Translations under genes and position numbers: made by a program | Part shown: positions 41,151 to 60,660 of the stretch, piece after piece | Position numbering within the stretch: position 1 is the first letter of the stretch | Layout of the letters: each line of letters opens with the position of its first letter | Notes under the pieces: model-generated | What the model saw: the letters and a program-made list of their open reading frames with translations, nothing else | The model's database searches: none | What the model was told of the DNA's origin: nothing | NCBI GenBank assembly: GCA_950295325.1 | Contig: OX485809.1 | Coordinates: 28,334,001-28,398,000, forward strand | Direction of reading: 5' to 3' | Origin: Polytrichum commune | Taxonomy: Eukaryota; Streptophyta; Polytrichopsida; Polytrichales; Polytrichaceae | DNA: 64,000 nucleotides

Positions 41151-41181
41151 GGTCGATAGTGACCTAAAAGGTTACGTATTA

Positions 41182-41416
41182 GGTAATCGTTTTATTGGAA
41201 CCGGTTCCAATAAAACGATTACCGGATGTAACCGGTTGGCCGCTTTGTTGAGCCGCGCAGGTGACCTAAACAGTGGGTCACCTGTCGTCTTCTTCAACAT
41301 ATCCGATTTAGATGATCATAACCGGTTGGGATGTCGAGGTTATCGTCTGCAAACCTGTGTGCTCAGAGCCAATCGTGTAGTGCCACCTCCGCGAAACAAA
41401 GCGGCCAACCGGTTAC
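41182..41416. repeat. Nested palindrome cluster with AACCGGTT motifs
   Basis: Three inverted structures are packed into 235 bp. Positions 41,182-41,223 form a 42-bp perfect palindrome centred on AACCGGTT. Positions 41,228-41,249 and 41,395-41,416 form a 22-bp perfect inverted pair (GTAACCGGTTGGCCGCTTTG...). Between them, 41,258-41,266 and 41,276-41,284 form a 9-bp stem (CAGGTGACC/GGTCACCTG) with a 9-nt loop. AACCGGTT occurs four times (41,199, 41,230, 41,320, 41,407). The segment is visibly richer in G+C than its surroundings. A 107-codon frame crosses it but is best explained by the palindromes. The class is unknown. Confidence 0.85.
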
Positions 41417-43853
41417 GGATGTATAGACACATAAGTAAGTCCAAAATGTAACACCCGTTTCATAATGCATGAGTAATGCTCTTATAAAACAGTTTGGAAA
41501 TAACAAATCTGCTTGTCATGTTCATGGCTTGGCAACTCCCATGTCACTAAGGCGATGTGCATGGGGGTGTGTGGTCTTGGGTAAATCACATTTAAGCCAT
41601 TCATTCACAGAGTCCCATCCTACGATGTACGAAACAGCTCGGGCGGCCTATTAAAATAATAATAATAAATAAATTATTACGTATGAAATTTTGGCAGATG
41701 AAAAACCAATGTTTGTAAGGTGAAGGGGTTGATTGTTCATCCCATCGTATTAGAGCATTTGTGTGGGATTTTAAAGGTTCCCAAGGGGTTTCCTAAGTTC
41801 CCTAGTAACCTTGGTTCTATCTTTATGAAGGAAGAGGTAGGAGTTTGAACCTCCCTGTTGGCATCATCTCCTCCGCACATCCTTTTCATGACGGACTTAG
41901 TTTGAAATTTTTCATCCAAGATTTGTGAGTGGATGGAGGTGGAGATTTCATCCAACGTGAAGTTTTTCAAACTCTACCCAAGGGGAAGAGAAGTTAGAAG
42001 TTAGGGCAACATGGGAGCTTTTAGATTTGTCATATTGCAATTGATGGCTGAGATCTTCCAAGCCCCTGACTATACAGGTGACGTTCACAACGCCTCAGTG
42101 ACGTGGTGGCAACTCCCCATATTATAAATTTCCATGTATTTTGGATTAAGTCGAGTCATTTTAGAGCTATTATAATGTATTCAAAAGGTTTTAAGTTCAC
42201 CATTCTTCTTCTTCTTCTTCTTCTAGTAGGGCTTAAATAGAGGATTCAAGTTTATAGCTTTCTATTACACCGAGTCATGTTACAATATCTTTATATGCTT
42301 TTAAGAGATGCTTTCAAGAAGTTGAGTTATGGGTATCCATGGACAATCATCCCCATAAATTTTTCCTTTTATAAGAAAAAATTTAATTTTTTTTCAACAT
42401 ACAACATATAAATAAAAAAATTATTTCATTGTTTAAAAAACAGGACATCAAGAGCACGTTGATTTTAAACGTGATTGCAAAATCATTTTCATTTTTTGAG
42501 TGAAAGCATACTAACTTGAAGGCCACGCTAAATCACCTTGTCAGTGTGGATCTGTTGGCGACCTAAATGTTCCAAAATGGAAATCCAATTTCAGTTGATT
42601 GACTAGTATTTATGTAATCCCGGACATTTTGGCCAATTTTAGACACAACCGGTCACAATTTTAGTTGTTGTGTATCGTATGTGACCAAGTATTGGTATTT
42701 CAAGGTGATAAAATCTTTGTACATGCGTGTTCTTCTGTGGGTTAATATCATTTAAAACCACGTTGATACTTGGGCAGTTTTACCTAGGTATGAAGGTTCT
42801 TGCATGATATACCGACATATATATTGTACCCAAATGGAATAATATCTAAACTTTAAAGTCACAAATGTTCATACTCTATTTGATATCAAAAAGTATGAAA
42901 TCTTCATTATAGACACCTTATTGTTATACAAATAGAAATGATACTAGTCCAACATTGGTGCAAACACACTCACACTACATGTTTATTTGAACTGGGGCTT
43001 TATCATTGGAATGCATATGCATAAGTTGGATGAGAACTTCATATGACAACCTTGTGCAAACCCACATATGACCATAGTAGAGGGTTTTAATTTATTTGAA
43101 ACAACATTTGTGATGTGGGTATTTTTGAAGTGATCTACCGAAGGTATGTGTGCCTTTTGTGGTCAACCTTCTTAACCATATACCTATATTCAAGTGGTCG
43201 TTGCATGGCAAGGGGATTGTAGTCAAGAACATACACTTTCCAAAAAACATTTACAAAAAAACGACGCATTTCATGATGAGATTGAACAATGTATCCGAAA
43301 TGTAGACATCGTTTCATGTTCAACACTGAACGCAATGGGGAGGGTATATGTGATTACTTAAATAGAAAGATAATCTTCACTTTGACCTTTTATAATATAT
43401 GCATCCCAACTCCAAGATTGAAACTTGGAGTGACAATCTTTCACGATTTGCTTTTGTTGACTAAATGAAAAAATCCCCCCATCCAATTCAATCATCAAGA
43501 TTGTATGCAGAGTTGGAGGTGCCCACAATAGGACCACACACATTCTAGAAACATGTGGACCTCTACAAATATGTGGTATGGTTGACCTTGGAAACATGTT
43601 GACTCTTTTACTCATGCAAATTACCTTGAGTAAAAATCATATCACAAAAACTAGTCACTTTGTTTAGTCATCCGTATACAACCACAAGGTAAGACATTTA
43701 TTATTTTGCTATTGTGGTAAAAAATATATTCAAAATAGCATTGAATGATGGGAAAAGTACGCAAGTCGACCTAATTGCACATATGAGTGTAGAATTTCCG
43801 GTGCACCATATTTTAGGCCATGTGAAAAGCTTCATCCTGATTGGTCTGTGACA
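41417..43853. other. Intergenic, no supported gene
   Basis: A (CTT)n tract is at about 42,202-42,223. Segments at 42,740-43,110 and an inverse CACCTATATTCAAGTGG-family copy at 43,175-43,345 are dispersed repeats. No gene or RNA gene was recognised. Confidence 0.4.
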
Positions 43854-60052: not shown

Positions 60053-60660
60053 CAGTAGCCTCCCACCTAAGTACGCACCCATTTAAGTACGCATCCCGGT
60101 AAAGTACGCATTATTTTCCCGAAAAAATAGGGTTCATATTTATTTAGTTCAACATGTCATGGATTGTCATTTGGCGCAAGTTTTGAAGATTCTTGCGTTT
60201 GGATTTCAAGGTGATAGCCCGGACCTTACTTTGAAACGATTCAGACAACTTTCTAAGATCATCGAATGTTTCCTCAGCCTCTTCTCGAACTTCGGAGCAG
60301 AGCAACTGATCCTCTCGGTGAAACGACCAACAGAGGATCGAAAAGTCTTATCTTTAGCTTCATCAGACATTAAGGCAGATCGCTCTAGGATTTGCTCCCG
60401 CTTGTCCCACACCTTTCTGTTAGCTCCTTCACTAACATCGTACTCGCGCGCTATAGCCCTTTTACTATGAGCATCCGTCTTGCTAAGCTTCGCTATGATC
60501 TCACATCGCTTAGACTCATTGAGGCGTTTCCCATTCGGTTTCTTTGACATTGCAGCCGAATCAAGCGATTAGGAACCCTAAACCCTAAAGTGCGCACCTA
60601 CCGGCTAAGTACGCACAATCCTCCCAGGTTCAAGTTGCGTACTTAGGCGGGAGGCTACTG
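60053..60660 (-). mobile_element. Pogo/Emigrant-like DNA transposon relic
   Basis: The ends CAGTAGCCTCCCACCTAAGT (plus ACGCA) and the inverse CAGTAGCCTCCCGCCTAAGT match over 24 of 25 bases. Repeats of AAGTACGCA lie just inside: three at the left (60,068, 60,083 and 60,101) and one or more in inverse and direct form at the right (60,606 and around 60,636), as expected for transposase-binding sites. CAGT termini fit the pogo branch of Tc1/mariner, which duplicates TA. The flanks here are TC and TA, so one side may have mutated. A 608-bp length means most of the transposase is deleted. Confidence 0.8.
60206..60550 (-). pseudogene. CENP-B/pogo-type helix-turn-helix fragment of a transposase
   Basis: A 114-codon frame begins with ATG at 60,550 and stops at 60,206. 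Residues 1-60 read as a psq/CENP-B N-terminal domain: KRCEIIAKLSK, then AIAREYDVSEGANRKVWDK and REQILERSA. This is the DNA-binding head of pogo-like transposases. The DDE catalytic domain is absent, so the product could bind ends but not cut DNA. The later residues drift into text that is not obviously protein. Expression is unknown. The non-autonomous status is inferred from length. Confidence 0.7.

Follow-up and report, generated by a model that had tools for sequence, protein, structure and literature searches.

The question raised by this locus is what kind of element could place a 42-bp perfect palindrome, a 22-bp inverted pair, a 9-bp hairpin and four AACCGGTT motifs side by side in the 64-kb stretch of plant DNA analysed here (the window). 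The preliminary description, which listed these features as one unit at 41182–41416, suggested a foldback element, a structured non-coding RNA locus or a cluster of host sites of the Grainyhead/CP2 type. All four features are present (Table 1), and the palindrome is far beyond chance, since the second-longest perfect one in the window measures 18 bp and none of 50 shuffles gave one above 22 bp. The AACCGGTT motifs lie at 41199, 41230, 41320 and 41407, with one further occurrence in the window, and the one at 41320 reads AACCGGCT in most copies of the repeat examined. The predicted fold of the locus is strong (z -9.4). From its sequence we judge, with a probability of about 85%, that what lies here is a Crypton-like DNA transposon of the tyrosine-recombinase (YR) type, present in a plant genome as a short, non-autonomous copy.

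A tRNA-like SINE head, earlier placed beside the nest of palindromes, finds no support: ARAGORN detects 0 tRNAs in the window, and the joined flanks match their own locus alone genome-wide. The window also contains an Lzipper-MIP1 match and, at 60209–60568 (-), a fragment with a weak match to the CENP-B N-terminal DNA-binding domain, which is probably a relic of a pogo-like transposase.

Table 1 Parts of the element and of its target site, in window coordinates
Feature	Position	Strand	Sequence or remark
Complete non-autonomous element, 241 bp	41176..41416	+	5'-GTATTAGG...CCGGTTAC-3'; ends common to 83 copies read, flanks unrelated
42-bp perfect palindrome, the shortened left-end hairpin	41182..41223	.	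52-nt left-module class
5' terminal GTATTA	41176..41181	+	Faces GGAT (41224–41227) when folded; loop mostly unpaired, beside cut point
Inner 22-bp arm	41228..41249	+	GTAACCGGTTGGCCGCTTTGTT; in a circle would pair with right terminal arm across the hairpin
Right terminal 22-bp arm	41395..41416	+	AACAAAGCGGCCAACCGGTTAC; complements inner arm 100%
Internal 9-bp hairpin	41258..41284 (stems 41258–41266 / 41276–41284)	+	CAGGTGACC-9 nt-GGTCACCTG; retained in most copies
Left half of target site	41173..41175	+	TAC (family consensus TAY); cut 3' of TAC
Right half of target site, first base	41417..41417	+	G in 77/83 copies

A young dispersed family

The 235-bp query matches about 40 other places in the 408-Mb plant genome at nearly full length and 94–99% identity. 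With up to 2 mismatches and both strands searched, the left-end 22-mer has 385 matches and the right-arm 22-mer 432, with 0 for the reversed control of each; because inverted-repeat probes can match each copy twice, we count at least 216 dispersed copies. Lack of a second copy had been named beforehand as a sign that would refute the preliminary reading; more than 200 copies are present, and the locus is not an isolated rearrangement.

When 83 copies were read together with their flanks, all were found to have GTATTAGG as left end and CCGGTTAC as right end, rare base changes aside, while the flanks are unrelated, so the window copy spans 41176–41416. The unit as first delimited thus lies within the element, and its true left edge is six bases further left. 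The two ends match as inverted repeats of each other over the first three bases only, and the window element has the orientation of the recombinase open reading frame (ORF) in the long copies described below. Mean divergence from the consensus is 1.9% over the last 95 nt, mainly through C-to-T and G-to-A changes, which bears out the recent origin proposed at the outset; by general plant substitution rates the family is young, perhaps a few million years old. Pairs of copies less than 25 kb apart number 5 on contig C2, where 1.1 are expected (p 0.004), and none on C1. At locus L011 (C3:11787901-11788378) two copies lie head to tail with the junction GGTTAC|TTATTAGG, as if one copy had inserted at the other's own TTAC end.

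Target site and junctions

Left flanks end in TAY, with T in 60/83, A in 74/83 and Y in 80/83 copies, and right flanks start with G in 77/83. Paralogous empty sites place the insertion between Y and G of TAY|G (the bar marks the cut point), and these unfilled sites align gap-free and free of duplication once GTA...TAC is taken out. The clearest of them, GACCGATTAT|GTTTG, is present in many paralogues of a common repeat and has been filled independently in three copies (L027, L042 and L062). The check for flanking target duplications was itself informative, in that none was found at any clear empty site.

At informative positions -4 to -1, right-end junctions retain the element base in 54/54, 23/23, 9/9 and 69/71 copies; left-end junctions do so at positions +1 to +3 in 6/6, 37/37 and 56/58. 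The crossover is at one point, with an overlap of zero or at most one base, so ordinary target duplication is ruled out; zero overlap is unusual for a staggered recombinase. A one-base target duplication of G was also considered and rejected, since in all 6 copies with a non-G right flank (6/6) the left end still shows the element base.

Origin of the left-end palindrome

Among copies the left module is always a hairpin, with lengths between 52 and 138 nt. Pairwise deletions between the four AACCGGTT motifs of the 136-nt form predict six products, five of which were found (in 1, 5, 2, 17 and 8 copies). The 52-nt class, to which the window copy belongs, corresponds to deletion between the outer AACCGGTT repeats of this form, and so the 42-bp palindrome is most plausibly what such a deletion left of a longer hairpin. 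Left modules of 52, 70, 88 and 136 nt each pair with more than one type of right half, and thus either the shortening is recurrent or the halves have been exchanged. Covariation between the hairpin arms is nearly absent within this young family, with one double change in 1577 cells.

If the ends of the window copy are joined, the 96-nt site has a folding energy of -47 kcal/mol, against -12.3 for shuffles (z -14.3), and in this fold the mostly unpaired GTATTA/GGAT loop lies at the cut point TTAC|GTATTA. The palindrome of one copy (L063, C2:9663700-9663975) continues right up to the end of the left module (CCTAATAC|GTAAAC), where the usual spacer is GGAC. Window positions 41169–41234 have a sub-threshold similarity to the MIR6288 precursor (26.6 bits vs a cut-off of 74), which is probably what any perfect hairpin would give.

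Long copies and their putative recombinase

Searches with internal sequence from the longer short-form copies located long copies as matches in two pieces, separated by 2.9 kb on C3 and by about 4.2 kb on C4. The C3 copy (58736.7–58739.8 kb, 3207 bp), assembled from the overlapping loci L097 and L101, has both family ends, the left hairpin, the target TTAT|G and a 512-aa ORF. Residues 56–148 of this ORF align with PF00589 over its C-terminal half (E=1.5e-4; 22 bits vs the curated cut-off of 27.1), and it is also matched by PHROG integrases (5.2e-6 and 9.6e-5), by the NCBIfam XerA model (1.2e-3) and weakly by the integron integrase IntI4 (E=1.1). Pfam, PHROGs and NCBIfam are concordant, and on these similarities the ORF is taken to carry the catalytic C-terminus of a tyrosine recombinase. 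In the region TNKSGRITSITRM...ALNTGHKNMKSIERYNR the R, GH and Y are present, with K where the H of HxxR is expected. PF00589 is the sole significant Pfam domain in the 512-aa ORF, and in this ORF, which covers the recombinase without its N-terminal part, there is no match to DUF3504 or GCR1_C. A single-sequence AlphaFold run on the YR fragment gave no usable model (pLDDT 37).

The C3 copy is without the N-terminal part of the recombinase, and the upstream catalytic R would fall in the deleted part. In the C4 copy the recombinase domain is 97% identical to that of C3 and lies in a 527-aa frame; its extra length of about 1.2 kb falls in the N-terminal coding region, and the C3 upstream sequence matches this copy on both sides of the gap. 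The missing N-terminal part should therefore be encoded in the 1.2-kb stretch of C4 that C3 has lost. Because a long copy with both family ends, and a second long locus that matches it in parts, encode a YR domain, the short copies are read as non-autonomous derivatives.

Diverged relatives of the recombinase occur on C3, C6 and C7 (52–57% identity), some with 528-aa frames. Two of these, C7:30499606 and C7:30531798, have identical scores and 528-aa frames and lie 32 kb apart; they may be domesticated genes or belong to a different family. The long element's 5' coding region is also present at a third locus, C3:31511503-31511844, which has no recombinase-domain match nearby. In a genome search with PF00589 the plant element copies score below the cut-off; it is exceeded in the whole assembly by one match only, in a 370-aa open frame (C23:4199-4615) of a small contig that is possibly organellar or a contaminant. 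The host of the family is a plant, since many chlorophyll a/b-binding genes share its chromosome-size contigs; the Lzipper-MIP1 match in the window agrees with this. A 95-kb stretch at C5:1751760-1846160 contains fourteen copies of chlorophyll a/b-binding genes whose domain scores are identical.

Relationship to Cryptons and integron cassettes

The preliminary description knew no usual plant transposon class that would fit, and this is borne out. With Cryptons (Kojima and Jurka 2011, PMC3212892) the family shares a YR gene with no other transposase domain found, the lack of a target duplication and a short TAYG-like repeat at both junctions, and the CryptonS termini TATGG resemble its target preference. 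It differs from them in its land plant host, its long terminal hairpin and 22-bp inverted arms, its zero-overlap crossover, its hundreds of short derivatives and the lack of a DUF3504 or GCR1_C match. Crypton termini are 4–6 bp direct repeats with no terminal inverted repeats; the family has TAYG at both junctions, yet also long inverted arms and a hairpin. We class it as a Crypton-like YR DNA transposon outside the named Crypton subgroups.

Integron cassettes and their attC sites (PMC2727003) likewise combine a YR with a site in a long imperfect palindrome, which leaves some bases unpaired at the cut side and varies in length in its terminal part, and with a single-point crossover beside ...AC|G. 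Here, in contrast, the system is eukaryotic, the recombinase is on the element, dispersed genomic targets replace attI, the length variation is explained by direct-repeat deletion, and any use of a single strand is argued by analogy.

Proposed mechanism and alternative explanations

The short copies would be moved by the recombinase of the long copies. Acting at both ends (GTATTAGG and GGTTAC), this enzyme would yield a circular copy, and because the two 22-bp arms flank the left palindrome in the circle, a very strong hairpin would form with the joined ends TTAC|GTATTA in one of its arms. The recombinase would then join the circle site to a genomic TAY|G site. One folded strand may be recombined and afterwards resolved by replication, as for integron attC, and a single strand exchange would also yield a zero-overlap junction. 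The hairpin across the cut site together with the single crossover point suggests such attC-like recombination. Taken as a whole, a eukaryotic integron-like system in a land plant, in which an element encodes its recombinase, the joined ends form, from one strand, an attC-like hairpin for single-strand exchange with TAY|G and subsequent resolution by replication, and hundreds of gene-less cassettes have spread, is a tentative proposal to which we give somewhat less than even odds.

Its main rival keeps the same YR transposon and has it move by ordinary double-strand recombination, with two staggered exchanges between circle and target, the hairpin serving binding or replication only, and the single point arising from biased repair of a short overlap. 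This route suits the L011 head-to-tail pair and the TAYG at both ends of family elements, and movement as circles with 4–6 bp direct repeats is presumed for known Cryptons (PMC3212892); we would put its chances, too, a little below one half. Against it, a 6–8 bp overlap would be expected to mix donor and target bases, and more than 250 informative positions are without mixture, two possible C-to-T changes aside.

Helitrons have 5' TC and 3' CTRR ends and insert at A|T. They and their hairpin-ended short plant derivatives resemble the family in zero target duplication, a terminal hairpin and a tandem copy, and these likenesses, with the precise insertion point and the position of the hairpin near one end, are what a Helitron, Replitron or other HUH single-strand transposon carrying YR genes as passengers would explain. 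Such an origin is nevertheless very unlikely: the ends are GTATTAGG and GGTTAC, the target is TAY|G, and both long copies have a YR in place of Rep/helicase, with no other significant domain in the ORF. For Replitrons, duplications of 2–8 bp are expected (PMC10741241) and the family has none; they are also reportedly absent from seed plants (PMC10741241). We think still less of a DDE-type MITE or foldback element with unusual ends. Small size, palindromic structure with inverted arms, high copy number and internal deletions would suit it, but clear empty sites are free of target duplication, the inverted-repeat match of the ends stops after three bases, the long copies encode a YR and no DDE-type partner was found. 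The original suggestion of a foldback element nevertheless came near the truth in pointing to a foldback-like mobile element. Least probable of all is a palindrome maintained by the host as a regulatory site cluster or small-RNA locus. The strong fold and the MIR6288 similarity would agree with it, and individual family copies could yield small RNAs, but a host-maintained origin is refuted by a dispersed repeat with transposon ends. For locus and window alike Rfam has no family at gathering score, its best sub-threshold match being a generic perfect hairpin, and a structured RNA locus finds no support; the AACCGGTT motifs once likened to Grainyhead/CP2 sites belong to the transposon end.

Significance

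Cryptons are known from fungi, animals, stramenopiles and Chlamydomonas (PMC3212892). YR DNA transposons are undescribed in Arabidopsis (PMC7385966), a 2022 land-plant survey makes no mention of Cryptons, and a 2026 review gives YR DNA transposons/Cryptons as undescribed in plants (PMC13317346). Our own search covered the open-access literature, with Repbase outside its scope. Plant genomes would gain a transposon order through a young, high-copy family whose recombinase can be identified, and short zero-duplication repeats that standard annotation may overlook would be accounted for. If one-strand recombination proves true, the integron trick would exist beyond bacteria, and loose TAYG targeting could make such an enzyme technically interesting.
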